Source: Deltaproteobacteria bacterium | GTDB lineage: Bacteria; SAR324; NAC60-12 | Assembly (NCBI GenBank): GCA_002683655.1 | Contig: NYTS01000093.1 | Location: 1-39,670 of the forward strand | Direction: 5' to 3' | Length of the DNA: 39,670 nucleotides | Shown here: positions 11,404 through 39,670 of the stretch, piece after piece | Position numbering within the stretch: position 1 is the stretch's first letter | Layout of the letters: each line of letters opens with the position of its first letter | Translations under genes and position numbers: made by a program | The notes under the pieces: model-generated | What the model saw: the letters and a program-made list of their open reading frames with translations, nothing else | Databases searched by the model: none | Told to the model about the DNA's origin: nothing

Positions 11404-14400
11404 ATGTCCGAAGAGCCAAACAGCAATTTAAATTCTGAACATAGTAATAAAATAAATGACATGATTCGGGTAACCGGTGCTTGTGAACACAATCTGAAGA
11501 ATCTGAGTCTTGATATTCCAAAAGACACTTTGACCGTTTTTACGGGTGTGAGTGGTTCTGGTAAATCATCACTTGCTTTTGACACAATTTTTCAAGAAGG
11601 ACAAAGAAGATTTGTCGAATCGCTATCAGCCTATGCCCGACAATTTCTGGGCCAGTTGGAAAAACCCAAGGTTGAACATATTGAAGGCTTGAGTCCAACC
11701 ATTTCAGTTGATCAGAAAACTGTTAACCGAAATCCCCGTTCGACAGTCGGAACGGTAACTGAAATCTATGACCATCTTCGACTACTTTTTGCCCGTTTAG
11801 GACAACCACATTGTCCTGAATGCAAAACGCCGATTTCCAGTCAAACCCCAGAACAGATTACGGATCATGTTTATGCAGTAGCTCTCGATGAGGCTTGCTC
11901 GCTTTTAGCTCCAATTGTTCGAGAGCGAAAAGGAGAGTATCGAAAGGAAATTCAACAGTGGGTACAAGATGGATTTGTCAGGGCCCGGATTGATGGAAAT
12001 ATTCGTAGGCTTGACGAGGAAATTGAACTTAAAAGATATGAAAAACACAGTATTGAGCTGGTTCTCGACCGACTTGTCTTAAGCTTAGATGAAAAAAGTC
12101 GCCTAACAGAAGGCATTGAAAAAGCGCTGAAAATGAGTGAGGGCTTAGTCATTTTGAACTTCAAGGGAGAAGATCATCTCTTCAGTCAATTGAGTGCTTG
12201 TCCAACTTGCCAGATTTCACTACCGGAACAGGAACCACGACTTTTCTCATTTAATGCTCCCCAAGGCGCGTGTCCAACCTGCAATGGCTTAGGCGAGACC
12301 CGACAGTTTTTGGAAGAGAGACTCTGTGATTCAGAAAAAACTCTTACAGACGGTGCGGTCCAATGTGTGACTGCTAACGGGAATATTCATTTCACAAAAA
12401 TTGATAAATCCCACCTACATGCAGCGGCCAAGATGCTCGGTCTCGATCTGAATTCATCTTGGGGTGAACTACCTGAGCAGCAGAGAGAACAGTTTCTCAA
12501 AGGAAATGCACAAGTTTCTCTTTATGTGGGCAACGTGTTTCGATTCCCTTCCCATCTAAAAAAACAAATCAAAGCAGGTAAGTGGGCTGGTGTGATTCCG
12601 ATTTTGGAATTTGTTTACAGGTTTGCAAAAGGACCCTTGGAGCGTTTTCAAATCCGGGCTGTTTGCCCGGATTGTAGTGGAAGCCGACTGAATGCTATGG
12701 CAAGGGCTGTAACTTTCCGAGATCAAAACATTGTTGACCTAGGTGATTGTTCAGTCACTGAAGCGCTCACTTTTTTTGAAGGTTTGGAACTGACGTACAG
12801 AGAGGAATTGATTGGTCGGGATCTTTTTCGGGAAATTAGTGCGCGCCTTTCTTTCTTAAGTGAGGTGGGACTCGGGTACCTCAGCCTTCAACGTTCGGCT
12901 GCTACGCTTTCTGGAGGGGAAGGCCAGCGTATTCGCTTAGCAAGTCAACTTGGTTCTGGTCTTCAGGGAGTGCTCTACGTCCTTGATGAACCAAGTATCG
13001 GTCTTCATCAAAGTGACAATCAGAGATTGATCAAAACTTTGGAAATGCTACGAGACCGTGGAAACACAGTTTTTGTGGTGGAACATGATGAAGAAACCAT
13101 CCGTGCTGCTGATCATATTATAGATATTGGACCAACAGCGGGCCGAGATGGGGGAAACATTACTGCACAAGGTGGCTATCAAAAGATTCTGGACTCTCGT
13201 GAATCTGTTACAGCCCAGTTCTTAGTAGGAAAAGAAAAAATGCCAGTTCCTACAGAACGAAGAACTCCAGATGGAAGATTTTTATCAATTAGAAATGCCC
13301 GTTTGCATAATCTGTTGGGCTTGGATGTCGAAATTCCCCTGGGACTATTTGTCGTTTTGGCTGGAGTCAGTGGCTCCGGAAAATCGAGCCTAGTGCATGG
13401 AATCCTGAGACCAGCCTTATTGCAACATCTGCAAGGAAACGGAAAAGATGACTCTAATGAACCGACCGAGGAGGAAACATCAAAAGAAATCAAAGGGAAG
13501 TGGGATCATGTTACTGGTCTGGAACATCTGGATCGACTGATTGAAATCAATCAGTCCCCCATTGGTCGAACTCCAAGAAGTAATCCGGCTACTTACACCA
13601 AAGTTTTTGACCTGATTCGTGATCTCTTCACCATGCTTCCAGAGTCAAGGATTCGTGGATACAACAAGGGGCGATTTTCCTTCAACGTCAAAGGAGGGCG
13701 ATGCGAAGACTGTAAGGGGGCTGGGTTGAAAACCATTGAAATGCAGTTTCTGAGTGATGTCCAAATTCCCTGTGAAACCTGCGACGGCAAGCGATTCAAT
13801 GCCGAAACTCTGCAGATCCGTTACAAGCATAAAACGATCTTTGAAATTCTTGAACTGACAATCTCAGAAGCTGCTGAACTTTTTGAAAACCAACCAAAAA
13901 TCCTTCACATCCTTCAGACTCTGCTAGATGTCGGCTTGGGGTATGTCAAGCTTGGGCAGCCATCTACGACCCTCAGTGGGGGCGAGGCTCAACGTGTAAA
14001 GTTAGCTTCAGAATTACGAAAAAAATCCACAGGTCGGACACTGTATCTCTTGGATGAACCTACGACAGGACTTCACTTTCAAGACATTCGCACGCTGCTA
14101 CAGACTTTGGATCGCTTGGCTGAACAGGGTAATAGTGTGTTGGTCATTGAACACAATCTCGATGTTTTGCGCTTTGCCGATCAAGTCATTGAATTGGGAC
14201 CAGGTGGGGGCAAATTTGGTGGTAAATTGGTGGGCAAGGGTACCCCAGAGGAATTGGCTGAATTAAATACTTTAACGGGCGGATTCTTAAAACCACTATT
14301 GGAGACGCAGTTAGGTGAAGAATCTTCCAGAGCTAGGGAAGTCAACGAACGCAATGCAATAAATGGTTTTCGGAGCGAAAGAAAAGAGCGAGATCTAGTT

Positions 14401-25754: not shown

Positions 25755-26010
25755 GTTTAGACACTCCACAAAGAAGATTAATCAAGAATCTGTTTGAATT
25801 AGTTATTGCAAAATCCCTGGCACTCAAAATTCAGTGTTGATTTTTGGCAAGGCCCTGCACCATAATCACGCCGAATTTTTCAGGACGCAAATATTTTTGA
25901 AAATTTGATATCATCAGACGATCAGATCTTTAATATTTGCTCTTAATGAATTCAACACTTCACTTTGCACCGATACCTGTAGTCATCTAATAACACCAAG
26001 GGGGTAAGAT

Positions 26011-26982
26011 ATGAACTTAAACGAAGCACAACTACTTCAGGCGTATCGAAAGATGCGTCAAATCCGAGCCTTTGAGGACCGCGTCCACGACGAGTTTGCC
26101 ACGGGAGAGATTCCGGGCTTCGTCCACCTGTACGCTGGCGAGGAGGCTTCTGCCGTTGGCTTCTGCATGCACCTCAACGATGAAGACCGCATCGCCAGTA
26201 CCCACCGTGGTCACGGACACTGCATCGCCAAGGGTGTAGAGATCAAAGGGATGATGTCGGAGATCTACGGTCGCCGCAATGGCACCTGTGCTGGCAAAGG
26301 TGGATCGATGCACATTGCTGACTTGGAGAAAGGGATGATGGGGGCCAACGGGATCGTTGGCGCAGGGCCTCCACTGATCTGTGGTGCTGGCCTGGCTGCC
26401 AAGTTCCGCAAGAATGGCGGGGTGGCGATCGCTTTTGTTGGCGATGGTGGCTCCAACCAAGGGACAACGCTGGAGTCCTTGAACCTGGCTACTGTCTGGA
26501 ACCTGCCCTGCATCTTTGTGGCCGAGAACAATGGCTATGCCGAGTCAACCGGCAGCAAGTGGTCCGTCTCCTGTGAGAACATCGCTGACCGTGCGGCAGC
26601 CTTTGGGATGCCAGGGGTTGTGGTCGATGGTCACGACTTTTTTGCAGTCTATGAGGTGGCTGGTGAAGCGATCAAGCGGGCCCGTGAAGGGGGAGGTCCG
26701 ACGCTGATTGAGTGCAAGCTCAACCGCTACTATGGTCACTTTGAAGGGGATGCCCAGACCTACCGTGGGGTGGATGAGGTCAAGAAGGTCAAGGAGAGTA
26801 AGGACTGTCTGATGCTCTTCAGCAAGCGAGTGACCGAGCAGGGGCTATTGACCCAGGCGCAGCTGGATGCCATCGACAAGGAAGTGGCTGCAGAGATTGA
26901 AGCCTCGGTAGCGCATGCGAAGTCTTCAGCGAAGCCGACCTCGGCCGACCTGATGACCGACGTCTACGTAAGCTATCCCTGA
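26011..26982 (+). CDS. acoA: Thiamine-dependent dehydrogenase E1 alpha subunit, acetoin/pyruvate type (copy 1)
   Basis: The 323-residue E1 alpha subunit has the thiamine diphosphate motif GDGGSNQG followed by ENN about 25 residues later, and the KGGSMHIAD segment near residue 92 typical of the AcoA/PdhA family. GGGGG precedes the ATG. With the E1 beta gene 32 bases downstream it would decarboxylate or cleave a 2-keto or hydroxy-ketone substrate and pass the acyl group to a lipoyl E2. No E2 follows directly; the AcoC-like E2 at 34.2 kb is the nearest candidate. Codons strongly favour G or C in third position (one sampled 60-base line is 58% GC), unlike the paralog at 32.2 kb. Its 5' region is repeated exactly at 39580-39670. 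Substrate is inferred from the AcoX and AcoC-like neighbours. Confidence 0.85.
   Translation: MNLNEAQLLQAYRKMRQIRAFEDRVHDEFATGEIPGFVHLYAGEEASAVGFCMHLNDEDRIASTHRGHGHCIAKGVEIKGMMSEIYGRRNGTCAGKGGSMHIADLEKGMMGANGIVGAGPPLICGAGLAAKFRKNGGVAIAFVGDGGSNQGTTLESLNLATVWNLPCIFVAENNGYAESTGSKWSVSCENIADRAAAFGMPGVVVDGHDFFAVYEVAGEAIKRAREGGGPTLIECKLNRYYGHFEGDAQTYRGVDEVKKVKESKDCLMLFSKRVTEQGLLTQAQLDAIDKEVAAEIEASVAHAKSSAKPTSADLMTDVYVSYP
26033..26123 (+). repeat. Direct repeat, left copy (91 bases identical to 39580-39670)
   Basis: Every base from 26033 to 26123 matches 39580-39670, where the window ends, so the true repeat is probably longer. The identity starts inside the E1 alpha coding region; upstream sequences differ. 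Confidence 0.95.
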
Positions 26983-27014
26983 ACGATGAACGGCAATATA
27001 AAGGAGAACAAGAC

Positions 27015-28016
27015 ATGGCCAGAGAGTTAACATTCAAGGACGCAATCAACGAGGCGTTGGCCCAGGAGATGGCTCGCGATGAGACAGTGATTGCGATGGG
27101 TGAGGACAATGTTGGTGGGATGGGAGCCGAAGGAGAGATTGATGCCTGGGGTGGGGTGCTTGGGGTGACCAAGGGTCTGCATGCCCAGGTGGGGGATCGA
27201 ATCATGGACACGCCGATCACGGAGTCGGCCTTCATTGGGGCAGCAGCGGGAGCGGCGGCCTGTGGAATGCGGCCTGTGGCGGAGTTGATGTTCATCGACT
27301 TCATGGGGGTTTGTTTTGATCAGATCTTCAACCAGGCAGCGAAGTTCAAGTACATGTTTGGTGGCAAGGCGGAGACGCCGCTAGTGGTACGTACGATGAT
27401 TGGGGCAGGTTTACGAGCAGCTTCTCAGCACTCACAGTGCTTGTATCCGGTCTTCACGCATATTCCTGGTTTGAAGGTGGTGATTCCATCGAATCCGTAT
27501 GATGCCAAGGGGTTGATGATCCAGTCGATCCGGGACAATGACCCGGTGATTTTCTGTGAGCACAAGTCGCTCTATGGTCTCAAGGGAGATGTACCAGAGG
27601 GATCGTATGCGATTCCGTTCAATGAGGCCAACGTAGTGCGGGAAGGGGGAGATGTGACAGTAGTGGCGATGGGGATGATGGTCCACAAGGCGATGGAAGC
27701 AGCATCGGCGTTGGCCAAGGAAGGGATCCAGTGTGAGGTGATTGATCCAAGGACAACCTCACCGTTGGATTTGGAGACGATCATCGAGAGCGTGGAGAAC
27801 ACGGGTCGCTTGGTGGTGGTGGATGAGTCGAACCCACGCTGCAGCATGGCAGCGGACATTAGTGCTCAGGTGACGGAGCAGGCCTTTGGTTCGTTGAGGG
27901 GTCCAGTGAAGATGGTGACGGCACCGCACTGTCCGCCGCCGTTTTCGGATGTATTGGAGGATCTCTACATTCCAAGTCCAGAAAAGATCGCTGAGGCTGT
28001 CAGGGCTTTGAAGTGA
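27015..28016 (+). CDS. acoB: Thiamine-dependent dehydrogenase E1 beta subunit, acetoin/pyruvate type (copy 1)
   Basis: The 333-residue E1 beta subunit has the usual N-terminal pyrimidine-binding domain (REL-FKDAINEAL, DTPITESAFIGAAAGAA) and a C-terminal transketolase-C domain (VIDPRTTSPLDLETI). AAGGAG lies at an ideal distance before the ATG. It shares the high G/C third-position style of the E1 alpha gene in front, though with more G-ending than C-ending codons, and the style stops at its end. The stop overlaps the AcoX start. It is predicted to form the alpha2-beta2 heterotetramer with its partner. Confidence 0.87.
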   Translation: MARELTFKDAINEALAQEMARDETVIAMGEDNVGGMGAEGEIDAWGGVLGVTKGLHAQVGDRIMDTPITESAFIGAAAGAAACGMRPVAELMFIDFMGVCFDQIFNQAAKFKYMFGGKAETPLVVRTMIGAGLRAASQHSQCLYPVFTHIPGLKVVIPSNPYDAKGLMIQSIRDNDPVIFCEHKSLYGLKGDVPEGSYAIPFNEANVVREGGDVTVVAMGMMVHKAMEAASALAKEGIQCEVIDPRTTSPLDLETIIESVENTGRLVVVDESNPRCSMAADISAQVTEQAFGSLRGPVKMVTAPHCPPPFSDVLEDLYIPSPEKIAEAVRALK

Positions 28017-29059
28017 GACTTCAAGATCCGCCCAAAGAGGTGAGCCGGCCAATTCGTGTCGGAATTCTGGCAAACCCTGCCTCTGGGCGGGATATTCGAA
28101 GAGTCATCTCAAAAGCTTCTGTTTTCCCGACAGCTGAAAAGTGCAACATGATCCAACGATTGATGGGTGCACTGACAGTATGTGGGGTCGATGAAGCTTG
28201 GATGATGCCGGATAAGGGAGGTATAGCTACTGTCATTAAGCGATTCGGTCAGACTCCTGAAGGGAAGCGATTGCTGCCTGTTCAATTTACGGACACAGAC
28301 ATCATGGAGATCCCTGAGGACACCAGATTATCTGTCCGTGCAATGATAGCAGCTGGTATTCGCGCAATCATAGTCTTGGGGGGAGATGGCACTCATCGCC
28401 TAGTTGCTGAGGAATGTGGTGAGATCCCAATGGCAACACTCTCGACGGGGACAAACAACAGTTTTCCAGAATTGAGGGAAGCTACTCTCAGCGGTTTGGC
28501 AGCGGGTTTGGTTGCGACCGAAAGGTTAAACCTCGACGATGTTACCAGACGTGAGAAAAGACTGTTGGTTGAAGTTAATGGCGAAACAAGGGGTATGGCT
28601 CTCGTAGATGCTTGCATTAGTGCAGATATGTTTGTCGCTGCAAAAGCAGTTTGGCAAGTTGAGCAGCTTAGAGAACTGTATGTGACTTTTGCATCAAGCG
28701 AGGCAATCGGACTTTCTTCAATCGCTTCGTTGGTGAATCCCGTTGGGCGGGATGAAGATCATGGTCTAGGAGTGCAAATGGATCCAGAAGCCACCCAAAA
28801 GGTTATGGCTCCGATTGCACCTGGTTTGTTTGCTAAACTTGGAATTCAAAGATGGGACGAACTTCAACTTGGAAGCTCCTGGGCTCCAACCATCGACCGA
28901 GGAGTGATTGCTCTTGATGGGGAAAGAGAAATTGAGTTCAGAGCTGTTGATAACGTCCGATTAAGTATGGATCGTCTTGGCCCCAGGGTAATCGACGTCA
29001 GCAAGGCTTTAGGTGCGGCCGCTAAGCAGGGGATCATGCTATCTGATTCAAATGAGTAG
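28013..29059 (+). CDS. acoX: AcoX-like ATP-NAD kinase family protein
   Basis: The 348-residue protein starts at a GTG that overlaps the E1 beta stop (GTGA). It has an NAD-kinase-like core: GILANPASGRDIRR near residue 18 and VLGGDGTHRLVA near 122, with STGTNNSFPE near 143, corresponding to the GGDG and NTD-like sites of the superfamily. AcoX genes recur in acetoin-degradation operons, but their biochemical role is not settled to my knowledge. Its presence supports an acetoin-type reading of the E1 genes. It returns to the ordinary base composition of the region, so it was not part of the same compositional block as its upstream neighbours. Confidence 0.82.
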   Translation: MRLQDPPKEVSRPIRVGILANPASGRDIRRVISKASVFPTAEKCNMIQRLMGALTVCGVDEAWMMPDKGGIATVIKRFGQTPEGKRLLPVQFTDTDIMEIPEDTRLSVRAMIAAGIRAIIVLGGDGTHRLVAEECGEIPMATLSTGTNNSFPELREATLSGLAAGLVATERLNLDDVTRREKRLLVEVNGETRGMALVDACISADMFVAAKAVWQVEQLRELYVTFASSEAIGLSSIASLVNPVGRDEDHGLGVQMDPEATQKVMAPIAPGLFAKLGIQRWDELQLGSSWAPTIDRGVIALDGEREIEFRAVDNVRLSMDRLGPRVIDVSKALGAAAKQGIMLSDSNE

Positions 29060-29175
29060 TATTTGAGGGAAGGGGCTATCCAAATTGGAATTAACCCATG
29101 TGCGCAACCTTTCAAAATTTTTAAAGGTCATCTACTGAGATTTCATTCACTTCCGATCTTTACAGAGATAAGAAC

Positions 29176-29973
29176 ATGGATCTTCAATTAAAGGAAAAAG
29201 TTGCTTTAATCACAGGTGCCAGCAGAGGGTTAGGCAAAGCTTGTGCTGAAATGCTGGCCTCAGAGGGGTGTCATCTTTCACTTTGTGGGCGTAACAAAGC
29301 TAAACTGGAGGAAGTTGCTAGTAGATTGAGAAGTGATACGGTCAAGGTGTTGACTGTAGAAGCTGATCTTCGAAAGCGTGAAGAGAATGAAAAATTCGTA
29401 AATGAGTCAGTAGCTCACTTTGGGGGCATGGACATCCTGGTTAATAATGCTGGTGCGGGGCAATTGAGTGATCTTCTTGGTAACGATGAAGGGTTGATCA
29501 GAGAAAGTATGGACTTGATGTACTTTGGCCCTTTGCATTCTTCCAGAGCTGCAATTCCGCATTTAAGGAAAAGAGGTGGAGGAAGAATCATCAACATCTC
29601 TTCCATTTTTGGAAAGCAACCGGGAGGGTTGGTTGATTATGACTCAGTCAAGGCCGCACTGAACATGCTTACAAAGGACATGGCTAATTATCTCGCAGGA
29701 GATAAAATTCTGGTCAATGCTGTGTGTCCAGGTCCAATCAAAGGGCCACTTTGGGAAGAACCAGGTGGTTTGGGAGATCAATTGGGAGGTTTTCTTGGTA
29801 TGCCTGGTCCAGATGCGATTGAGGCATTTGCTAACCAAAACATTCCTCTGGGCCATTATGGAGATCCAGAAGATGTATCAACATTAGTTGCATACTTGGC
29901 ATCACCACATAGGAAGTTCATAACTGGTCAGGCAATCAACGTTGATGGCGGTATGGTCAAGACATTGATTTGA
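29176..29973 (+). CDS. Short-chain dehydrogenase/reductase in the aco-like cluster
   Basis: This 265-residue classical SDR shows TGASRGLG near residue 14, NNAGAG near 92, and the catalytic Ser with YDSVK (ISSIFGKQPGGLVDYDSVK). The C-terminal GQAINVDGGM is standard. An AGAGATAAG ribosome site precedes the ATG. It lies between acoX and dhaK on the same strand. In this setting it may interconvert a polyol or hydroxy-ketone with the substrate of the kinases or the E1 complex, for example acetoin/butanediol-like or alditol/ketose pairs. The substrate cannot be fixed from sequence. Confidence 0.85.
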   Translation: MDLQLKEKVALITGASRGLGKACAEMLASEGCHLSLCGRNKAKLEEVASRLRSDTVKVLTVEADLRKREENEKFVNESVAHFGGMDILVNNAGAGQLSDLLGNDEGLIRESMDLMYFGPLHSSRAAIPHLRKRGGGRIINISSIFGKQPGGLVDYDSVKAALNMLTKDMANYLAGDKILVNAVCPGPIKGPLWEEPGGLGDQLGGFLGMPGPDAIEAFANQNIPLGHYGDPEDVSTLVAYLASPHRKFITGQAINVDGGMVKTLI

Positions 29974-30036
29974 TATCTGATCTTTGAAAAAAATTAATAT
30001 TTAGGGTGCATCCCACTCAAGTAATAGAGGAATCTG

Positions 30037-31041
30037 ATGAAGAAATTGTTGAATGACCCATACAAGTACGTTGATGAAATGTTGGTGGGAATGTGTGCAG
30101 CTCACCCAGAGATTTACAGACAGACTGGCGAAGGTGGGAGAGTCATTGCCCGGGCTGGGTCTCAAAGACCAGATAAAGTTGGTATTGTCTCAGGGGGTGG
30201 TTCAGGACATCTACCTGTGTTTACAGGTTATGTGGGCCATGGGCTTTTAGATGCTTGTGCAATCGGAGATGTGTTCGCTTCTCCTTCCGTCGAGCAGATG
30301 GCTGAAGCGATGAAAGTTGCTCATGCGGGTGCTGGAGTGTTACGTCTCTACGGAAATTATGGGGGAGATGTGATGAACTTCGATATGGCTGGAGAGCAAC
30401 TGGAAATGGAGGAAGATATCCAGTCCACCACTGTTCTCCTGGCAGATGATGTTTCCTCTGCTCCACCAGAGGAAGGTGAGAAACGTAGAGGTGTTGCAGG
30501 AATGGTATACGCTTTCAAAATCGCAGGAGCCGCGGCCGAACAAATGCGATCGTTGGAGGAAGTGACGCGAATTGCCCAAGAAACCGCCGATTCCTGCCGT
30601 AGCGTTGGGGCCGCATTGACTCCTTGCACAATTCCACAAGCAGGTAAAGCGACCTTTGAGATTGCTGATGATGAGATGGAAATGGGAATGGGTATTCATG
30701 GGGAACCTGGAGTATGGAGAGACAAGCTCAAACCAGCAGATGACATTGCTCATGAGATGGTGGATCGGTTGATTGCAGATCGGGCGATTGACTCAGGTGA
30801 TCGGCTCTCAGTAATGGTTAATAGTTTGGGCGCTACTCCTCCTGAGGAACTCTACATCCTCTACAGAGTTGTCAAAAAGCGGGTTGAAGAACTGGGAGCC
30901 ACTATAGTGATGCCACTTGTCGGGCGTTACGCAACTTCAATGGAAATGTCAGGCGTTTCAATGACTTTTTGTTTCTTAAATCAGGAAAGAGAGGCATTAC
31001 TGCAGGCACCTGCGCGCTGTGCTTTTTGGCAGGTAGAATGA
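30037..31041 (+). CDS. dhaK: Dihydroxyacetone kinase-type subunit DhaK
   Basis: The 334-residue DhaK-domain protein has the substrate-binding segments GSGHLPVFTGYVGHG (histidine 58), NYGGDVMNFDMA with its aspartate, and MGMGIHGEPG with the histidine expected to bind the substrate carbonyl covalently. GAGGA precedes the ATG. It is followed with a 4-base overlap by DhaL. No DhaM phosphotransferase subunit is visible, so phosphate would come from ATP bound to DhaL or from a PTS protein encoded elsewhere. The substrate may be dihydroxyacetone or another short ketose; related split kinases act on other triose or tetrose ketones. It sits between two E1 gene sets. Confidence 0.9.
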   Translation: MKKLLNDPYKYVDEMLVGMCAAHPEIYRQTGEGGRVIARAGSQRPDKVGIVSGGGSGHLPVFTGYVGHGLLDACAIGDVFASPSVEQMAEAMKVAHAGAGVLRLYGNYGGDVMNFDMAGEQLEMEEDIQSTTVLLADDVSSAPPEEGEKRRGVAGMVYAFKIAGAAAEQMRSLEEVTRIAQETADSCRSVGAALTPCTIPQAGKATFEIADDEMEMGMGIHGEPGVWRDKLKPADDIAHEMVDRLIADRAIDSGDRLSVMVNSLGATPPEELYILYRVVKKRVEELGATIVMPLVGRYATSMEMSGVSMTFCFLNQEREALLQAPARCAFWQVE

Positions 31042-31637
31042 TGAAAGTTTCTTGGTTGCAAGACCAACTACCCCAGTTGGCTGAACATCTAGAGTCAAGT
31101 GCAGAGGAACTGAACGGCCTGGATGCCCAACTTGGTGATGGAGATCTCGGGGTGACAATGGTTCGTGGGAGCCGGCAACTTCTGGAGATTCGGGAAGAAC
31201 TGCCTGATGATTGGGGGATGGCGCTGCTAAAGTGTGCCCAGGCCTTTACCAAAACCAGTGGCTCCAGTTACGGGACCATCCTTGCTACAGGTTTGATGGC
31301 AATGGCTAAGCAGAAGAAGGGGCAGGCAGAAATGGATTCAAGTGAGTGGGCTGGTCTACTTAAAGTGGCACTGGAGGCAATGCAACATCGTGGAAAAGCA
31401 AAGTTGGGTCAGAAGACAGTCTTGGACCCAGTCTCGGCAGCACAGAAGAAATTGGAAAGTGATCCAGAAACAGGTCTCTTGGATCTGATCGAGGTGGTTC
31501 AGCAAACGATAGATGAATTTAGGGATAAGCCCTGCCAAATTGGCAGAGCCCGCATATTTCAGGACAAATCAATTGGATTAGATGACCCCGGAATGGTGGC
31601 ATTCAAACGGCTTTTAGAGGGCATTGTTCCCAATTAA
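31038..31637 (+). CDS. dhaL: Dihydroxyacetone kinase-type subunit DhaL
   Basis: This is 199 residues from the ATG at 31038, which overlaps the DhaK stop (ATGA); the track's earlier start at 30969 lies inside dhaK and lacks support. A second ATG follows immediately at 31041. The nucleotide-binding motif LGDGDLGVTM with its aspartates and the SGSSYGTILATGLMAMA helix are as expected. It supplies the nucleotide-binding domain for DhaK. The gene is followed by a 542-base stretch without a clear gene. Confidence 0.9.
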   Translation: MMKVSWLQDQLPQLAEHLESSAEELNGLDAQLGDGDLGVTMVRGSRQLLEIREELPDDWGMALLKCAQAFTKTSGSSYGTILATGLMAMAKQKKGQAEMDSSEWAGLLKVALEAMQHRGKAKLGQKTVLDPVSAAQKKLESDPETGLLDLIEVVQQTIDEFRDKPCQIGRARIFQDKSIGLDDPGMVAFKRLLEGIVPN

Positions 31638-31710
31638 GCAGTTTAGTTTTTTTAGAGCTAATTCCTGTAACGAATGTCTCACCCATCTATTTCAGAGGAG
31701 ATCTTAGCAG

Positions 31711-31890
31711 ATGAATAAGGGGGTTCAGGTCCTTTTGCCTGTTCATATTACACCGATGAATCGGCCTGGAACTAAACAATGGCTAGGCTTCAATGAGGAG
31801 CAGATAACGACATGTAGCCAACCAGCAGTGGAATCTTCAAAACTTCTGAAACGGCAAGATCTCACCTCGATGTTGGCCTGCGAAACGTAA
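31711..31890 (+). CDS. Possible small ORF, 59 residues, unknown
   Basis: This ORF was too short for the supplied track. The ATG follows AGGAG by ten bases and the frame runs 59 codons to TAA. The product starts MNKGVQVLLPVHITPMNRPG and has no signal peptide or membrane helix. I recognise no family. It could be a decayed fragment of a longer gene, a short real gene, or chance. Confidence 0.2.
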   Translation: MNKGVQVLLPVHITPMNRPGTKQWLGFNEEQITTCSQPAVESSKLLKRQDLTSMLACET

Positions 31891-32123
31891 AACCTGCTAT
31901 CCCCAATTTTAATGGGAAGGAACGCTACAATACGCCGATAATCTTGGCAGAAATACATTTAAAGCTGTTTCCGGGGGATTGACCTTATAGCAGACTTTAG
32001 ATGAATCTGCTGAAGTTTGCGTCAAGATTGTTCAGAAACTTTGAATCGATAACCAAAACGATGATACGAAAACTTTCTCGATGGGGTAACAAAACTTGGT
32101 TGGAAGATCTAACCCTTCTCCTG

Positions 32124-32145
32124 TCAGTACCCAAATGGGTACTGA
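32124..32145. promoter_or_regulatory. Perfect inverted repeat (9-base arms) before the second E1 alpha gene
   Basis: The core CAGTACCCAAATGGGTACTG is flanked by one more complementary pair, giving 9-base arms and a 4-base centre. It ends 34 bases before the preferred start of E1 alpha-2. It could be a regulator site, or an RNA hairpin in the leader. It also overlaps the alternative ATG at 32135, which argues against that start. Confidence 0.5.
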
Positions 32146-32179
32146 TACTTTCTTCTCTACTTCGTCTGCATCTGCACAT

Positions 32180-33211
32180 ATGATTTCTGAAAATAGCCGT
32201 CTCTTATATCTGCAACTCCTGCGGATTAGAACTTTTGAAGACCGAGTGGGTGAATTGTTTCTTCAGGGTGGAAGCGCAGGAACCATGCTTCATCTATCAA
32301 TTGGAGAAGAAGCACCAGCGGTTGGAGTTGCTGAAGCGATGGAGCCCAAGGACAGTTTTACTACTCATCATCGTGGCCATGGAATTTTTCTGGCTCGAGG
32401 CGCAGATCCAAAAAGAATGCTTGCTGAAATCGCTGGAAAAGAAGCAGGTTACTGTCGAGGTAAGGGCGGTTCGATGCACATTGCTGATCGAAAATTAGGT
32501 CATCTTGGGGCAAATGCGATCGTGGGTGGTGGAATTCCCCATGTAGTTGGTGCAGGGTTGAGTTACCAACTTCTTAAAGTTCCTGCGGTGTCTGTCGCAT
32601 TCTTTGGTGATGGCGCTATGCAGCAGGGAAATTTGTACGAAAGCATGAATCTGGCCGCACTCTGGAAACTTCCAGTCCTGTTTGTTTGTATCAACAATCA
32701 ATATGGAATGGGAACTAGACTCGACCAAGCGAGTGCCTCTCTTGAGTTTGTAAAGCGTGCCGAATCATTTGGGTTAGTTGGTAAAGAGGTTTCAGGACTT
32801 GATGTGGAAGAAGTAAAAAAAGAGGCAATGGAGATTTTGGCTTTGGCTCGTGAAGGGAAACCAGCTTTCATGAAAATTGACTGCTATCGCTTTCATGGGC
32901 ACGCCAGGAAAGATAAGAGCCCTTATCGAGATCAGAATGAGGAAGAGGAAGGTCGAAAAAAAGACCCCCTAAAATACCAGGCAGATCGCTTACTGGAGCA
33001 AGGAGTCTCCGTATCTGAGATGGATAGTTGGCATAAAAAAGTTGCTGATGAAATGGATGAAGCTTTGAATTTTGCCTTAGAAACTCAGGAACCTGTGTTG
33101 AATTCAATGTTCGAGGATGTCTATGCCCCTAATTTGACGCATCCAGAATCTGTGGGATCAAGGATCGATCGTGCATTGTACTCTGATATCCTGTTGGGGG
33201 ACTCTCGATGA
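32180..33211 (+). CDS. acoA: Thiamine-dependent dehydrogenase E1 alpha subunit, acetoin type (copy 2)
   Basis: This is 343 residues from the ATG at 32180. I prefer it to the track start at 32096 and to the ATG at 32135 because alignment by eye with copy 1 (LLQAYRKMRQIRAFEDRV versus LLYLQLLRIRTFEDRV) begins just after it; none of the three has a good ribosome site. The thiamine motif GDGAMQQG followed by INN is complete and KGGSMHIAD is conserved. It overlaps the E1 beta-2 start (ATGA). Codon use is like the background, unlike copy 1, so the two are old paralogs. It is expected to work with the E1 beta-2 and AcoC-like E2 that follow. Confidence 0.88.
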   Translation: MISENSRLLYLQLLRIRTFEDRVGELFLQGGSAGTMLHLSIGEEAPAVGVAEAMEPKDSFTTHHRGHGIFLARGADPKRMLAEIAGKEAGYCRGKGGSMHIADRKLGHLGANAIVGGGIPHVVGAGLSYQLLKVPAVSVAFFGDGAMQQGNLYESMNLAALWKLPVLFVCINNQYGMGTRLDQASASLEFVKRAESFGLVGKEVSGLDVEEVKKEAMEILALAREGKPAFMKIDCYRFHGHARKDKSPYRDQNEEEEGRKKDPLKYQADRLLEQGVSVSEMDSWHKKVADEMDEALNFALETQEPVLNSMFEDVYAPNLTHPESVGSRIDRALYSDILLGDSR

Positions 33212-34185
33212 AAGAAATGACCTATCGGGATGCACTGCGTTTGGGTCTCCAGGAATCAATGCAGTCTGATCCAACTATCGTGATCTTGGGAGAGGAGGTT
33301 GGACGATATGGAGGAGCATATGGGGTTACCAAGGGGCTCCTTCATGAATTTGGAGAAGACTGGGTAAGAGATACTCCAATCTCTGAGGAAATATTAGTGG
33401 GTGCGGCGGTCGGAGCAGCAATGACTGGGTTGCGGCCTGTAGCCGAGTTGATGTATGTCGATTTTATAACACTTGCGATGGATCAGCTAGTGAACCAGGC
33501 TGCCAAGATTCGCTACATGTTTGGTGGACAAATCAGTGTTCCGATGATGTTGCGAAGTCAAGGCGGAACAGGCAGATCTGCAGCAGCTCAACATTCACAA
33601 AGTTTAGAAGCCTGGGTAATGCACACTCCAGGATTGCACTTGGCAATGCCAGCCGATGCGACAGATGCCTACGTCTTGATCAAACATGCACTGACACTTG
33701 CTGATCCAGTTATATTTCTAGAGCACAAAGGTTTGTACGCTCAAAGCTTTCCCTTTAATCCTGAATCCGCTCCCCCTTGGGGTAGAGCTAAGATCAGTCG
33801 ATCAGGAAATGACTGTTCGATTATCTGTTACTCTAGAATGGTTCAACGCTCCCTAGAGGCAGCGGCCCAACTGGCTGAGTTGGGAGTGCGGGTGGAAGTT
33901 GTTGACCTCAGGACTTTACATCCTCTGGATATGGAAACAGTCACAAAATCTGTTCGAAAGACAGGGCGAGTTCTTGTGGTCACGGAGGACTGCCTGACAG
34001 CGGGCGTAAGTGCCGAGTTGTCAGCAAGAATTACGGAAGAAAACTTTGAGTATCTGGAAGAACCTGTCCTTCGAATGGCTGGAGAGGATATCCCGATTCC
34101 TGTTGCTCCTGCTTTGGAAGCTGCTTCGGTGCCCACGAATGAAAGCATCAAACAAAGTATTCTCAAATTGATGCGAAAAAAATGA
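33208..34185 (+). CDS. acoB: Thiamine-dependent dehydrogenase E1 beta subunit, acetoin type (copy 2)
   Basis: The 325-residue E1 beta subunit has MTYRDALRLGLQESM at its start, DTPISEEILVGAAVGAAM, and the C-terminal VEVVDLRTLHPLDMETV domain. It overlaps both neighbours by four bases (ATGA on each side), so E1 alpha-2, E1 beta-2 and E2 are translationally coupled. Differences from the 27 kb copy run along the whole length, so this is not a recent duplicate. It pairs with E1 alpha-2. Confidence 0.9.
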   Translation: MKEMTYRDALRLGLQESMQSDPTIVILGEEVGRYGGAYGVTKGLLHEFGEDWVRDTPISEEILVGAAVGAAMTGLRPVAELMYVDFITLAMDQLVNQAAKIRYMFGGQISVPMMLRSQGGTGRSAAAQHSQSLEAWVMHTPGLHLAMPADATDAYVLIKHALTLADPVIFLEHKGLYAQSFPFNPESAPPWGRAKISRSGNDCSIICYSRMVQRSLEAAAQLAELGVRVEVVDLRTLHPLDMETVTKSVRKTGRVLVVTEDCLTAGVSAELSARITEENFEYLEEPVLRMAGEDIPIPVAPALEAASVPTNESIKQSILKLMRKK

Positions 34186-35480
34186 GTACTGAACTAAGAC
34201 TTCCTCGGCTTGGAGAGACAATGGAGGAGGGGATTGTTGTTACTTGGAATCTTTCGGAGGGTGAGGGTTTTGAGCGGGGGGATACCTTGCTGGAAGTGGA
34301 AACTGATAAAATGGTTGCCGAAGTTCCAGCTCTGGAGTCTGGAACCCTGATGGAAATTTTGGTCGAAGAGCAGGCAAAAGTAAAAGTGGGTGACATCCTA
34401 GCGCTAATTGATCCCTCAGAGAAAAGTTCCAGAAAAATTGAGATTCCGGCTAAGACGGAACAGGCTCCCTCACAAAAAAAACCTAAATCTCCCCCTGCCT
34501 CATACGACCCAACGCATTCCTTTGTACATGATGAAAAAGATCAGGACCATATCCGAGCAGTTCCCGGTGCAAGAAGAATAGCCAAACGTGATGGCATCGA
34601 ATTAAAGGCAGTCATGGGAACTGGGCCTGCTGGTAGAATTGAGAGATCTGATGTTGATAAATTCTTTAAAAAAGAACCTGAAGGAGCTTCATTTGAACAA
34701 CCTTTCGGGCCACAAATGGGGCCAGGAGGAGTTCGTTTTCTGAGACGAGGAAACCAAAGCGGTACTCCTCTTGTCTTATTGCACGGCTTTGCCGCGGATC
34801 TGCATTCCTGGAGACTGATCCATGGTCCCTTATCCCGTAATAGAGATGTCATTGCTTTTGAACTCCCTGGGCATGGTGAGTCCAAAGTTTGGCAAGAAAA
34901 TGGGGGATTACAGGCTCTGGCTGAACACCTTGAACAGGTTATAATCGAACTGGAACTAGGGACAGTAGATATTGTTGGTCACTCCCTTGGAGGGGCGATT
35001 GCTGTTTATCTAGCTTCTCAGCAAACCAATATGGTTCGCCGATTGACACTTTTGGCTCCAGTCGGATTTGGCACTGAAATAAATTTGTCTGCTGTCGAGC
35101 CATTTACAGAAGAACTCTCAGAGTCAGAAATCAAGCTTGCTCTGTCTCGCCTTTTTTATGATCTCCGATGGATTAGTAAGGATTTGATTGAAGCAACCAA
35201 GAAAAATTTTGGCAGCTCAAATAGGAGGGCTCAAGCAAAGGATCTATTAAAGAGTATTTTCCCATCCGGAACTCAGGAATGGGATGGCCACAGTTTATTA
35301 TGCAAATTGAATCAACCAGTTCGCATACTCTGGGGAGAAGAAGACTTGATCCTTCCTGTAAGACACCTCAATGGATTACCTGGCTGGGTTGCCCAACACC
35401 GTCTTTCAAAAGTTGGACATGTGCCTCAAATTGAAGCTGCGCCACTACTGTTGAGAATTTTACAGGCTGACCCGGCTTAA
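34182..35480 (+). CDS. acoC: AcoC-like E2: lipoyl, E3-binding and alpha/beta-hydrolase domains
   Basis: The 432-residue E2 differs from pyruvate dehydrogenase E2 by its C-terminal domain. Residues 1-78 are a lipoyl domain with lysine 43 in VETDKMV. About 125-165 is a peripheral subunit-binding domain (VPGARRIAKRDGIELKAVMG). From about 185 an alpha/beta hydrolase fold follows, with LLHGFAADLHSW, nucleophile serine 268 in GHSLGG, an aspartate in WGEEDLILP, and a histidine in KVGHVPQIE. AcoC of acetoin dehydrogenase systems has the lipoyl plus hydrolase-fold combination, which is why I name the cluster acetoin-like. No E3 (dihydrolipoamide dehydrogenase) gene is in the window. Confidence 0.88.
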   Translation: MSTELRLPRLGETMEEGIVVTWNLSEGEGFERGDTLLEVETDKMVAEVPALESGTLMEILVEEQAKVKVGDILALIDPSEKSSRKIEIPAKTEQAPSQKKPKSPPASYDPTHSFVHDEKDQDHIRAVPGARRIAKRDGIELKAVMGTGPAGRIERSDVDKFFKKEPEGASFEQPFGPQMGPGGVRFLRRGNQSGTPLVLLHGFAADLHSWRLIHGPLSRNRDVIAFELPGHGESKVWQENGGLQALAEHLEQVIIELELGTVDIVGHSLGGAIAVYLASQQTNMVRRLTLLAPVGFGTEINLSAVEPFTEELSESEIKLALSRLFYDLRWISKDLIEATKKNFGSSNRRAQAKDLLKSIFPSGTQEWDGHSLLCKLNQPVRILWGEEDLILPVRHLNGLPGWVAQHRLSKVGHVPQIEAAPLLLRILQADPA

Positions 35481-35513
35481 AATTTTTTTGATTCTGACAA
35501 TTCAGGGGAACAC

Positions 35514-37013
35514 ATGCAGAAAAAATATGTCATTGGGGTAGACGGTGGAACTGAGTCGATTCGTGCTGGAGTCTTCGATCTTTTGGGTAACCCCCAAGCC
35601 TTTGCATCTGTCTCTTATCCGACTAATTTTCCAGTTCCCGGTTGGGCAGAACAAGATCCAGAAGACTGGTGGGATGCTCTCGGTGGAGCGGTCCGCCAAG
35701 CAGTGATCGATGCCAAAGTGGGCAAGCAGGAAGTCTTAGGTCTATGTCTGGATACGACTTGTTGCAGTGTTGTGGCCCTAGATGGTGATGGAAAGCCACT
35801 GAGAAACGCCTTGATTTGGATGGACATGCGCTCTGCTCCGCAGACAGAGCAAGTCTTGGCAACGGGTGATCCAGCGCTACAAGTGAATAGTAGTGGAAGT
35901 GGCCCGGTCAGTGCTGAGTGGATGATTCCAAAGTCATTATGGATTCATCAAAATGAGCCTGAAATTTTCCGGAAAGCAGAGACTGTTTGCGAGTTTCAAG
36001 ACTACTTAAATCTTCACCTGACAGGCAAGCGAGTTGCCAGCATCAACAATGTCTCAGTAAGATGGCACTATGGGCCTGGCTGGGGTGGATGGGCGAGTAG
36101 CATGGTTGAAAATTTAGGGATGCCGGAGTTGTTGAAGAAATGGCCAGACACAGTTCTTCGATTGGGCGAAGAAATTGGAGGCTTGACATCAAATGCAGCC
36201 ACGCATTTAGATCTCCAAGAGGGCTTGCCTGTCCTTCAAGGTGGTGCTGATGCTTTTATTGGAATGATTGGTCTTGGTGTCGTAGATCCAGGAAGTCTGG
36301 CATTTATTACAGGTTCTTCTCATCTCCATTTAGGGTTGAGTTCGCGGGCTTTCCACGGTCAGGGAATCTGGGGAACATATGCTGATGCAGTAATCCCTGG
36401 ACTGCATGTGGTTGAGGGTGGTCAAACCTCAACAGGTTCTGTGGTCAGCTGGATTCGCAGAACTTTAGGCAACCCATCCTTCGAAGAATTGAACCAAGAG
36501 GCGGCTCAATTGGAACCTGGATCAGAAGGCGTTATTATTCAGGAGCATTTTCAGGGAAATCGAACTCCTCATACAGATCCCCTTTCGCGGGGCGTCATTA
36601 GTGGACTAACGTTGAAACATGGACGCAGCCATCTATTTCGAGCCACCCTAGAGGGGATTGCGTTTGGAACTGAATTGATCCTTGAAACAATGAGGAATAA
36701 TGGTTTCGCAGCAGAAACTGTTGTCTTGGCGGGAGGGGCCACAAGATCGAGTCTGTGGCCACAAATTCACGCGGATGTTTCCAATTTGCCATTGACTTTG
36801 ACTAAGGTTCCTGACGCACCAGCTTTAGGCTCAGCTATCTTGGCAGCAGTTGGTTCAGGAGCTTACAGTGATATTGGAAGCGCATCTCGGAAAATGGTGC
36901 AGATTGATAGGGTGATCGAGCCAAACCCTGAAACTCATGGTCTTTATCAATCTTTTTATCAAAGTTATCGAGATCACTATCTAGCTATGAAAAACGCCCG
37001 ATCTGGTTTGTGA
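35514..37013 (+). CDS. FGGY-family carbohydrate kinase
   Basis: The 499-residue sugar kinase has the N-terminal phosphate motif GVDGGTESIRAGVFD, the likely catalytic aspartate in LQGGADAFIGMIGLG near residue 245, and the adenosine motif VLAGGATRSSLWPQ near 405. AGGGGA lies well placed before the ATG. It follows the E2 gene by 33 bases. Its motifs are closer to ribulokinase-like or pentulose kinase groups than to glycerol kinase, but I cannot assign the sugar. It would phosphorylate a ketose or polyol in the cytoplasm. Together with DhaKL it gives the cluster two independent kinases. Confidence 0.88.
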   Translation: MQKKYVIGVDGGTESIRAGVFDLLGNPQAFASVSYPTNFPVPGWAEQDPEDWWDALGGAVRQAVIDAKVGKQEVLGLCLDTTCCSVVALDGDGKPLRNALIWMDMRSAPQTEQVLATGDPALQVNSSGSGPVSAEWMIPKSLWIHQNEPEIFRKAETVCEFQDYLNLHLTGKRVASINNVSVRWHYGPGWGGWASSMVENLGMPELLKKWPDTVLRLGEEIGGLTSNAATHLDLQEGLPVLQGGADAFIGMIGLGVVDPGSLAFITGSSHLHLGLSSRAFHGQGIWGTYADAVIPGLHVVEGGQTSTGSVVSWIRRTLGNPSFEELNQEAAQLEPGSEGVIIQEHFQGNRTPHTDPLSRGVISGLTLKHGRSHLFRATLEGIAFGTELILETMRNNGFAAETVVLAGGATRSSLWPQIHADVSNLPLTLTKVPDAPALGSAILAAVGSGAYSDIGSASRKMVQIDRVIEPNPETHGLYQSFYQSYRDHYLAMKNARSGL

Positions 37014-37022
37014 GCACCAGGC

Positions 37023-38972
37023 CTAGTTCATATGTTCAGTCCACTGTTGACTGAGGCGTTTTACAGAAATCCCTGCTTTTTTCATATGTCGATAAATTGT
37101 TTTCCGATCACATCCCATTCGCTTGGAGACTGCTGAGATATTCCAATTCATTTCCTCCAGCAAATCGTAGAGTGAGATTGATTCAGAATCCTGTTCAGAA
37201 GTTGTCGTAAAAGTTCTTGATGGATCAGATTGGCTTTTTCCTCCAAATTGAATTTCTTCGGGCAAGTCTGACACATTGATATGTCCTTCACCAAGAAGTT
37301 TTGCCAATTCAAGAACGTTTTCAAGCTGCCGAATATTACCGGGCCACTCATACTGAAGCAATACCTCTTCAGCTTCCTCCGAGATAGTGGTTACTGATTC
37401 TTTTTGCCCTTTGTGTTGTTTTGCCAGAATTCGATTGATCAACCATTTAAGGTCCTCACGCTCTCTAAGAGCGGGCATCGTGAAAGTAATGCCTGCCACA
37501 CGATAGTATAAATCTTCTCTAAATTCACCAGCTTCTACCAACTCTCTCAAGTTGCGGTGCGAAGCACAAATCACTCTAATATCAATCTGCTTGGTCTTTG
37601 ATGAACCAATTCGCATCACCTCCTTTTCAGCAAGCACTCTAAGCAGTCTAGCCTGCAGATTCAGTGGCATATCCCCAATTTCATCCAAGAAAAGAATTCC
37701 ACCATTCGCCTGTTCGATAAGACCGATTTTGCCTTTTGCCCTGGCTCCTGTGAAGGCACCATTCTCGTAACCAAACAGCTCACTTTCAATTAAGTTTTCA
37801 GGAATGGCTGCACAGTTAATCGCTATGAAAGGACCTGGGACTCTGCGCAATCCGTGAATATACTTTGCGAGAAATTCTTTGCCCGTTCCGGTTTCACCTT
37901 GAAGCAGAATATTAACCTCAGCTTCCACAAGTTTGTCGAGCTTGCGCGCGATGCTCTCCATCCTTTTATCATCTCCATGCAGCACGCCATAAGCTTTGTA
38001 AGGTGTATCTCCAAGAGTGTTTCTGACTGGTTGTCTAGTTTGTATTGCACTGATAAAGTAAGTTTCTCCTTTATGCATACGGACTAACCTTTTATGGACA
38101 GGCATGTTCCGATTCATCATTGGTAGTTCTTCCATTCGCAATTCAAAGTAATCAGACAATAGTTCATTGAGAACTTCATTTCCGTGATGATTGCCCTTTT
38201 CGGGATTTAGCAGAGCCAATGCTTTACTTGTCATCCCAGTGATCCTTCCACTCGAATTTAATGAAATTGCGTAGTCAGGGGCAATCTCCAGGAAGACTGA
38301 GGATTTGCTGAATGTAACAAGCCACTCCGATTTGTAATTGTTTATCAAGGCCGCCATTTCAATTCGGGAGGCCCAGATACTTACTAGTTGTTGGGCAAAC
38401 GATTGAGAGTTTTTAGATCTAGGGGCTTGTAGAGCTGAGACGTCAAGTACAGCTGCCAAATTGCCAAAAGGATCATAGATTGGTGCGGCTGTACAGGTTA
38501 GTGAGATGTGGGAGGCATGAAAGTGATCGGTTTTGTGAACTGTGATCGGTTTCCCAGTGTAGATGCAGGCACCAATGCCATTAGTTCCGACTTTTTCCTC
38601 CAACCATTCTGCTCCAAGGTAAAGACCCGCTTTGCGAAAGTCTGATTCTTTATCAGGATCACAGAGATAATCCAAAGTGACTCCCTGGGAATTTGTTAGC
38701 AAAACCACATAATTATGCCCAACAATTTCCTGGTAGAGAGTTTCGAGGCCGAATCTGGCTGTTCTTAACAAATCTTCAGCTTCATCTACATGTTCACGAA
38801 GATGCTCTTCTGGGAGGATGTAGGCAGATCTCTTCTCAAATGGATTAAGTTCATGGACATTTATGCATCGACGCCAAGAATCAAGAATTTCTTGGTCTCG
38901 ATCCCCTTGGTGGGTCTCATTAATGACACTTTGAATCTCCTCAACGTGGAGCACGTCTTGACGCTGATTCAT
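37023..38972 (-). CDS. acoR: AcoR-like sigma-54-dependent transcriptional activator
   Basis: The 649-residue enhancer-binding protein is built as in AcoR. An N-terminal GAF-like sensor region covers about residues 70-200, with a linker or PAS-like part to about 315. The AAA+ domain has Walker A GETGTGKE and the sigma-54 contact motif GAFTGA, with LFLDEIGDMPL as Walker B. A C-terminal Fis-type HTH (NISAVSKRMGCDRKTIYRHM) ends the protein. GGGGGAGG precedes the ATG. The gene ends ten bases from the FGGY kinase gene, tail to tail, and its upstream region is shared with the third E1 alpha gene. The inducer could be acetoin or the cluster's substrate. Confidence 0.9.
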   Translation of the reverse strand: MNQRQDVLHVEEIQSVINETHQGDRDQEILDSWRRCINVHELNPFEKRSAYILPEEHLREHVDEAEDLLRTARFGLETLYQEIVGHNYVVLLTNSQGVTLDYLCDPDKESDFRKAGLYLGAEWLEEKVGTNGIGACIYTGKPITVHKTDHFHASHISLTCTAAPIYDPFGNLAAVLDVSALQAPRSKNSQSFAQQLVSIWASRIEMAALINNYKSEWLVTFSKSSVFLEIAPDYAISLNSSGRITGMTSKALALLNPEKGNHHGNEVLNELLSDYFELRMEELPMMNRNMPVHKRLVRMHKGETYFISAIQTRQPVRNTLGDTPYKAYGVLHGDDKRMESIARKLDKLVEAEVNILLQGETGTGKEFLAKYIHGLRRVPGPFIAINCAAIPENLIESELFGYENGAFTGARAKGKIGLIEQANGGILFLDEIGDMPLNLQARLLRVLAEKEVMRIGSSKTKQIDIRVICASHRNLRELVEAGEFREDLYYRVAGITFTMPALREREDLKWLINRILAKQHKGQKESVTTISEEAEEVLLQYEWPGNIRQLENVLELAKLLGEGHINVSDLPEEIQFGGKSQSDPSRTFTTTSEQDSESISLYDLLEEMNWNISAVSKRMGCDRKTIYRHMKKAGISVKRLSQQWTEHMN

Positions 38973-39094
38973 TTTTCCTCCCCCAATTGCTTCTAAACCA
39001 GAGTTAATTCTCAGATTCTTCAGTGTAGCTGGCTTAATTTAGATTAAAAAATTAAATTCTTAAATAAAATTTTTTTGAAAGTTTGTTCACAAAT

Positions 39095-39109
39095 CATCAT
39101 TTAATGATG
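39095..39109. promoter_or_regulatory. Palindrome CATCATT-T-AATGATG upstream of acoR-like gene
   Basis: CATCATTTAATGATG has perfect 7-base arms around one base, about 125 bases before the leftward activator start. It may be a regulatory site; its AT content means chance is not excluded. Confidence 0.35.
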
Positions 39110-39367
39110 CGATCATCTAACAGAATTCAATGGTTTTTTCAATGATTTTATTAATTGGTTGCTTAGGAAGTTTAAATTTAGAAAACTTCACTAAAAGTAT
39201 GAAAATCAGAATCAATTTTTGTATCAAGATGTTTTCCAATACTTAGATCTTAAATATGGATTTAACCGAAGATTGTCATTGCGAGTAGTTCAAACTTTGC
39301 GATGATCTCTGGAAAATTGAGCTTATAAAAAGTTGGTTCTAGTCTTCAAAATCTTATTCATCAGAAT

Positions 39368-39412
39368 GGGGCAAATACCCCAAACGCCCCAAAATATATT
39401 CTGTGTTGCCCC
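39368..39412. promoter_or_regulatory. GC-rich inverted repeat GGGGCAA...TTGCCCC, candidate activator site
   Basis: GGGGCAA at 39368-39374 and TTGCCCC at 39406-39412 are complementary and stand out in very AT-rich surroundings. A nested TGGGGC/GCCCCA pair also exists. It lies roughly 55-115 bases before the sigma-54-like element, a normal enhancer distance. Confidence 0.45.
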
Positions 39413-39414
39413 GC

Positions 39415-39440
39415 TTTCTAGTTACTAGAAATTATTCTAG
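39415..39440. promoter_or_regulatory. Iterated TTTCTAG/CTAGAAA palindromes
   Basis: TTTCTAG-TTA-CTAGAAA is a perfect 7-base-arm palindrome and shares its right arm with CTAGAAATTATTCTAG, so three alternating half-sites follow each other. This looks like a clustered protein-binding site upstream of the third E1 alpha gene. Confidence 0.45.
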
Positions 39441-39467
39441 GTTACTGAAATAAATATTGAAAAATAA

Positions 39468-39485
39468 TTGGCATAGAATCTGTCT
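39468..39485 (+). promoter_or_regulatory. Sigma-54-like -24/-12 element before third E1 alpha
   Basis: TTGGCATAGAATCTGTCT has the -24 GG and a -12-like element at the right spacing of ten bases, but GT instead of the usual GC at -12. It is about 75 bases before the ATG. The adjacent sigma-54 activator gene raises its likelihood; the mismatch lowers it. Confidence 0.4.
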
Positions 39486-39557
39486 AAAGAGCACATGACA
39501 AAAAGTCATTTTTTCAAAACTCTGTCACACTCAACATTCAGATTTAGGGAGTAGTAC

Positions 39558-39670
39558 ATGAGCCTAAGTGAATCTAAGTTACTTCAGGCGTATCGAAAGA
39601 TGCGTCAAATCCGAGCCTTTGAGGACCGCGTCCACGACGAGTTTGCCACGGGAGAGATTCCGGGCTTCGT
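39558..39670 (+). CDS. acoA: Third E1 alpha subunit gene, 5' part only (cut by window end)
   Basis: The first 37 codons are visible, beginning MSLSESKLLQAYRKMRQIRAFEDRV. GGGAG lies six bases before the ATG. The first eight codons differ from copy 1 at 26011, then 91 bases are identical to the window edge, including the same G/C-ending codons. It is probably a near-identical duplicate of copy 1 placed under a different, AcoR-adjacent promoter. Whether an E1 beta gene follows cannot be seen. Confidence 0.85.
   Translation, partial: MSLSESKLLQAYRKMRQIRAFEDRVHDEFATGEIPGF
39580..39670 (+). repeat. Direct repeat, right copy (91 bases identical to 26033-26123)
   Basis: This is the right copy of the exact repeat, running into the window edge. 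The offset between copies is 13547 bases, which brackets the whole aco/dha/FGGY/acoR cluster. Confidence 0.95.

Follow-up and report, generated by a model that had tools for sequence, protein, structure and literature searches.

The window analysed here, a stretch of 39,670 nucleotides, is a contig of a 3.15-Mb metagenome-assembled genome of the SAR324 clade (G000, 81% complete). Between position 26,011 and its right edge lie two pairs of genes for E1 subunits of thiamine-lipoyl complexes (E1a1/E1b1 and E1a2/E1b2), together with genes for an AcoC-type E2, an AcoX-type protein, a short-chain dehydrogenase/reductase (SDR), the kinase subunits DhaK and DhaL, an FGGY carbohydrate kinase and an AcoR-like activator (Table 1). 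A first-pass annotation had listed this same set, and all of its genes are present as intact open reading frames with the corresponding domains, except the partial E1 alpha at the right edge. The cluster had also been called fused, which is true of gene adjacency and in no other sense. Our subject is the series DhaK-DhaL-E1a2-E1b2-E2-FGGY, which sequence comparison sets apart as a unit distinct from the acetoin system on its flanks.

Table 1 Features of the acetoin-type and FGGY-linked region of the window
Feature	Position	Strand	Evidence or remark
acoA (E1 alpha 1, E1a1)	26011-26982	+	PF00676 326 bits; canonical acetoin dehydrogenase clade
acoB (E1 beta 1, E1b1)	27015-28016	+	NF006667 above cut-off
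AcoX-type NAD-kinase-fold protein	28013-29059	+	PF01513 and DAGK_cat
SDR oxidoreductase	29176-29973	+	PF00106 170 bits; no NCBIfam cut-off reached
DhaK subunit	30037-31041	+	Dak1 386 bits
DhaL subunit	31041-31637	+	Dak2 114 bits
Solute-binding-protein pseudogene remnant (3' end; lost ABC sugar importer)	31658-32110	+	79.6% over 539 bp to L139:2674-3210
E1 alpha 2 (E1a2), FGGY-linked clade	32180-33211	+	PF00676 219 bits
E1 beta 2 (E1b2)	33208-34185	+	NF006667 above cut-off
E2, AcoC type: lipoyl, E3-binding and alpha/beta-hydrolase domains	34182-35480	+	GHSLG in hydrolase
FGGY carbohydrate kinase, rare subfamily	35514-37013	+	FGGY_N and FGGY_C domains
AcoR/DhaR-like sigma-54 activator	37023-38972	-	divergent from second acoA copy
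Start of second acoA copy	39558-39670	+	runs off contig

The E2 passes the acetoin-dehydrogenase E2 model NF011457 (321.7 bits against a cut-off of 307), and the FGGY kinase scores below every NCBIfam FGGY cut-off. DhaK and DhaL fall under the equivalog cut-offs of TIGR02363 (357.3 against 406.25) and TIGR02365 (95.3 against 138.3), respectively. DhaK carries GSGH (55), GDVMNF (110, of the pattern GDxxNF) and GIHGEPG (219), which we take to be the motifs holding the substrate-binding histidine and aspartate. It is 97% identical to its homologue in Deltaproteobacteria bacterium PL36313bin_19 and 77–79% identical to others within the same family, which includes SAR324 cluster bacterium lautmerah10. 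An E3 gene is present in the G000 genome, outside the E1a2 unit.

Conservation and linkage of the FGGY-linked unit

Loci were compared across 80 genomes fetched via DhaK, alphaproteobacterial genomes fetched via FGGY, and annotated plasmids. The series from DhaK to FGGY is conserved in SAR324 relatives, in Alphaproteobacteria and partly in Chloroflexota. In the E1 alpha tree E1a2 belongs to a clade of its own (support 100/100), apart from the acetoin clade, and presumed housekeeping pyruvate dehydrogenase (PDH) E1 alpha sequences fall elsewhere. Linkage to the kinase is seen from both directions. All nine plasmid homologues of E1a2 with at least 60% identity have an FGGY homologue 2.7–3.0 kb away, and the next best plasmid E1 falls to 45% identity; conversely, among 11 loci in alphaproteobacterial genomes found by FGGY alone, 10 have E1a, E1b and E2 adjacent. 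The kinase subfamily itself is rare, being found in 3/240 alphaproteobacterial genomes and in 9/296 genomes in the order of a Roseobacter. The window shows the same pairing, an E1 alpha of the FGGY-linked clade with a kinase of this subfamily within 5 kb. The co-occurrence that the first-pass annotation proposed to look for is found in part: FGGY, DhaKL and the second E1ab-E2 set recur in distant genomes, but AcoX and E1ab1 are absent from such loci outside the genus. Our literature searches found no description of the combined FGGY, DhaKL and second E1ab-E2 gene set; the first-pass annotation knew of no characterised pathway with the whole set that it listed. The enzyme families are known, whereas their combination and likely reaction are undescribed in the literature searched.

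The surrounding operons take several forms. Rhizobia and Tritonibacter have SorC divergent from RbsB-RbsA-RbsC-E1a-E1b-E2-AhpD-like-FGGY-SDR-SDR. Many Rhodobacterales have SorC-TIM-barrel isomerase-E1a-E1b-E2-FGGY near RbsBACC-DhaKL and an aldo-keto reductase, the TIM-barrel epimerase/isomerase replacing the SDRs. Pelagibius (L017) has ABC-DhaK-DhaL-E1a-E1b-E2-FGGY followed by a FucU/RbsD mutarotase, and the SAR324 genus g3 has MtnK-MtnA-FGGY-BtpA-DhaK-DhaL-M29-ABC-E1a-E1b-E2. Since the architectures vary in carrying DhaKL, which the rhizobial and Tritonibacter operons lack, this kinase is a frequent partner and not an obligatory one. The window SDR is a genus-level partner of DhaKL. The first-pass annotation had made it the oxidising step of the pathway; we assign it no role. 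The SDRs in the homologous operons are not its orthologues, and direct homology with those of the rhizobial operons or with the one in the acetoin cluster was rejected, identity being only 28–35%.

Further companions were observed. In SAR324 relatives (L108, L141, L142, L144) the same FGGY subfamily accompanies BtpA/SgcQ-family and M29-peptidase-like genes, and in the SAR324 genus g7 it stands with a FucU/RbsD-type mutarotase and no E1/E2. Four rhizobial or roseobacter loci (L152, L153, L157, L158) have a small AhpD/carboxymuconolactone-decarboxylase-like gene between the lipoyl E2 and FGGY, whose product could serve the lipoyl domain as a redox partner.

In SAR324 g3 (G013, G007), DhaL and E1a2 are separated by a sugar ABC transporter of five genes, as they are in G005 and G004, of the same genus as G000, where the transporter is split across contig ends. 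It is missing from the window and from the same position in G003 and G002. The 0.55-kb gap at this junction in the window aligns with the binding-protein gene of a relative (Table 1), and tblastn reveals many in-frame stops and frame changes in it; the enzyme genes around the decayed remnant are still intact. Ancestral at the DhaL-E1a2 junction, this dedicated importer has been deleted in the window lineage. Among solved structures, neither FGGY nor the binding protein that was lost had a close relative informative about ligands. Gene content, conservation, clade structure, the transporter remnant and the E3 gene are established.

The neighbouring acetoin system

The genes acoA-acoB-acoX, the AcoR-like regulator and the right-edge acoA copy have the sequence and layout of a canonical acetoin system, of which they are true members. 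E1a1 groups in the AcoX-linked clade (support 100/99) and is 65–69% identical to AcoA of clusters containing AcoX and AcoC, two of the three clusters read also having a sigma-54 regulator. The AcoX-type protein is 95–97% identical among same-genus genomes. The third E1 alpha reported at the right edge does exist, as a second copy of acoA, matching 25999-26123 at 89.6% over 125 bp. In G002, of the same genus (L137), this copy runs on into a full acoA-acoB-acoC set that diverges from the regulator, which is how an acetoin operon is arranged. The contigs of G002 and G003 end at the acoAB repeat, as expected from two near-identical copies. When acoC was sought elsewhere in the G000 genome, 81% complete, the sole match was the E2 of the window itself. 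Control of the FGGY unit by AcoR through sigma-54 promoters was considered and rejected, with 15 pattern matches against 24 expected by chance.

The E1a2 unit resembles the acetoin dehydrogenase system in its E1 alpha/beta pair, in its AcoC-type E2 with an alpha/beta-hydrolase domain and in the acyloin cleavage chemistry expected of it. It differs in that E1a2 lies outside the AcoX-linked clade, and in that the homologous loci have a linked FGGY kinase, sugar transporters and SorC regulators.

Two other features lie at lower coordinates in the window. Positions 1606-9399 (+) encode a TRAP transporter, a HisD-like dehydrogenase (TIGR00069 above cut-off), an SDR, an alcohol dehydrogenase and a galactarate-dehydratase-like lyase, which together look like a putative dihydroxypropanesulfonate/sulfolactate degradation cluster. 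Positions 11404-17046 (+) hold one open reading frame of 1880 amino acids resembling two UvrA proteins head to tail.

An E1 clade linked to DXR-II

A third E1 clade (support 99/94) was encountered while relatives were being gathered. In 32 of 34 plasmid records, no more than 300 bases separate its E1 gene from a gene for DXR-II. DXR-II, or DRL, is a family of isoprenoid-pathway reductoisomerases acting on 1-deoxy-D-xylulose 5-phosphate (DXP) (PMC3847144, PMC3424233). The products of these plasmid genes match the structures 3upl/3upy, which we take to be Brucella DRL, at 368–685 bits. The DXR-II/E1 operons carry a sorbitol-type phosphotransferase system (PTS) or an ABC importer with a PfkB kinase, and this context, with the DXR-II adjacency, points to DXP as an E1 substrate. 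A simple reading is that 2-C-methylerythritol would be converted to 2-C-methylerythritol 4-phosphate (MEP), then to DXP, and finally to acetyl-CoA and glyceraldehyde 3-phosphate. The plasmid set is a candidate 2-C-methylerythritol catabolic operon. A text search of the family paper (PMC3847144) gave nothing for pyruvate dehydrogenase, transporter or catabolism.

On rhizobial plasmids, for example at L160, L163, L164 and L166 (S. americanum, N. thuwali, A. tumefaciens), DXR-II directly precedes E1a-E1b-E2(-E3). A Priestia plasmid has an FGGY relative (44%) adjoining a DXR-II-type gene and also carries a PTS and an E1-E2-E3 set. In two genomes of the window's own genus, G003 and G005 (L210, L211), a distant DXR-II-like oxidoreductase (33–36%) is encoded close to SDR genes and apart from the FGGY unit.

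Proposed reaction and alternatives

FGGY kinases phosphorylate ketoses. Acetoin-dehydrogenase-type E1 enzymes cleave an acyloin between its keto and hydroxyl carbons, the acyl group passing to the lipoyl-E2 and on to CoA, and E3 then reoxidises the lipoyl group. For the FGGY-linked unit we infer, by analogy, the following reaction, substrate and step order. The FGGY kinase would phosphorylate a short ketose at its terminal hydroxyl, and E1, with thiamine diphosphate, would cleave the product between its keto carbon and the adjacent hydroxyl-bearing carbon. The acyl piece would be carried by the E2 lipoyl arm to CoA, the second fragment would be released as an aldose phosphate, and E3, encoded elsewhere in the genome, would reoxidise the lipoyl arm. 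A 1-deoxyketose phosphate of the DXP type is the favoured substrate, giving acetyl-CoA and glyceraldehyde 3-phosphate. DhaKL would be an accessory kinase acting on dihydroxyacetone or a tetrulose, outside the core steps. We give this reading, including the favoured substrate, a probability of about 0.4.

The evidence for it can be summarised as (i) the near-invariant FGGY-E1-E2 linkage, which suggests a ketose phosphate as substrate of the complex; (ii) the DXR-II genes beside the third E1 clade, which favour DXP; (iii) three basic E1-alpha columns that are common to the FGGY and DXR-II clades only and are not seen in acetoin or PDH rows, two of them (Arg243, Lys246) in the loop that follows the GH motif, a pattern compatible with a phosphorylated substrate. 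DXP is a sugar homologue of acetoin. According to work cited in PMC3424233, pyruvate and acetoin dehydrogenases form 1-deoxyketoses (Yokota and Sasajima 1986) and E. coli XylB, itself an FGGY kinase, phosphorylates 1-deoxyxylulose (Wungsintaweekul 2001); aceE mutants make DXP (PMC3424233). A deoxyxylulose kinase paired with a DXP-cleaving complex is a coherent reading of the FGGY-linked unit.

Several observations weigh against it. The excess of shared basic columns is weak, at 3 against 0–2 for other clade pairs. His63 and His108 are invariant in FGGY-clade E1 alpha (30/30 rows) and missing from the DXR-II-linked and acetoin E1s, which may mean a more hydroxylated substrate, a hydroxymethyl and not a methyl ketone. 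A search of G000 at E 1e-30 found no DXR-II-like gene in this 81% complete genome. A Brucella grignonensis genome (G072) has the FGGY-linked and DXR-II-linked systems together on a single contig, so the two are probably not fully redundant. The core reaction leaves DhaKL unexplained. Lastly, the sister SAR324 genus g7 and Skermanella have the FGGY subfamily but no E1/E2 with it, so the kinase product can have fates other than E1/E2 cleavage.

Somewhat unlikely, yet the first alternative to weigh, is that FGGY phosphorylates a hydroxylated ketose (a pentulose, a tetrulose or a branched sugar such as apulose) and that the complex yields glycoloyl-CoA with a triose phosphate or glycolaldehyde phosphate; in a variant, an unphosphorylated branched ketose would give dihydroxyacetone for DhaKL to act on. 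A hydroxylated substrate is in keeping with the clade-specific histidines, DhaKL co-occurs in many loci, and the TIM-barrel enzyme of the Rhodobacterales operons also fits. A parallel is the D-apiose operon of E. coli SE15, which shares with the E1a2-type operons SorC, an Rbs-type ABC importer, FGGY, two SDRs and a two-subunit thiamine enzyme. That enzyme is AptAB, an apulose-4-phosphate transketolase, whose place is taken in the E1a2-type operons by the E1/E2 lipoyl complex. AptA/AptB was not found in the window locus, where the thiamine-dependent genes encode E1_dh/Transket_pyr E1 subunits, and AptB matches the window E1b1 and rhizobial E1b at just 22–27% over short stretches. The E. coli apiose-operon FGGY is likewise only 25% identical to the kinase considered here, and apulose was rejected as its substrate by orthology. 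Acetyl groups, moreover, are the known cargo of AcoC-type E2s, and the loci examined showed no glycoloyl-CoA-using gene.

It is improbable that E1a2-E1b2-E2 is a second dehydrogenase for acetoin or small acyloins with sugar kinases as chance neighbours. The E2 does pass the acetoin-dehydrogenase model and true acoABX genes adjoin; against this stand the distinct clade of E1a2, its near-invariant FGGY linkage across distant taxa, and the sugar transporters and SorC regulators in the same operons.

The single pathway of the first-pass annotation, which would have all of the listed genes, including AcoX, E1ab1 and the SDR, jointly oxidise, phosphorylate and cleave a hydroxyketone, survives in its kinase and thiamine-lipoyl part, which recurs as FGGY/E1ab-E2 loci; as a whole it is very improbable, since despite tight packing on one strand and an order AcoX-SDR-DhaK retained in G000, G002 and G003 (AcoX-SDR also in G005), the acetoin part is a neighbour in the canonical clade with its usual AcoX/AcoR partners and is missing from the homologous loci elsewhere.

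The dihydroxyacetone phosphate (DHAP) shunt for 5-deoxypentoses (MtnK, MtnA and a class II aldolase) also bears comparison. Its genes adjoin FGGY/DhaKL/E1 units in several relatives, and a mutarotase homologue has been reported in a DHAP-shunt cluster (PMC6079011). The window differs in having none of the shunt genes, and the chemistry of the shunt is aldol cleavage.

Taking the two linked clades together, we advance more tentatively the idea that lipoyl-dependent ketose-phosphate dehydrogenase complexes, with at least two E1 clades (FGGY- and DXR-II-linked), may run deoxysugar catabolism via DXP to acetyl-CoA and glyceraldehyde 3-phosphate, in effect using the early MEP pathway backwards as a carbon source. 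If the proposed cleavage is correct, oxidative splitting to an acyl-CoA by a PDH-type complex would be a third route of ketose-phosphate splitting, besides aldolases and transketolase/phosphoketolase. It would suggest why DXR-II persists where it is perhaps unneeded for isoprenoids, namely for the catabolism of 2-C-methylerythritol or deoxyxylulose. Genes that currently carry the annotation pyruvate dehydrogenase, in SAR324 and on many plasmids of rhizobia and roseobacters, would then have a function assigned to them.

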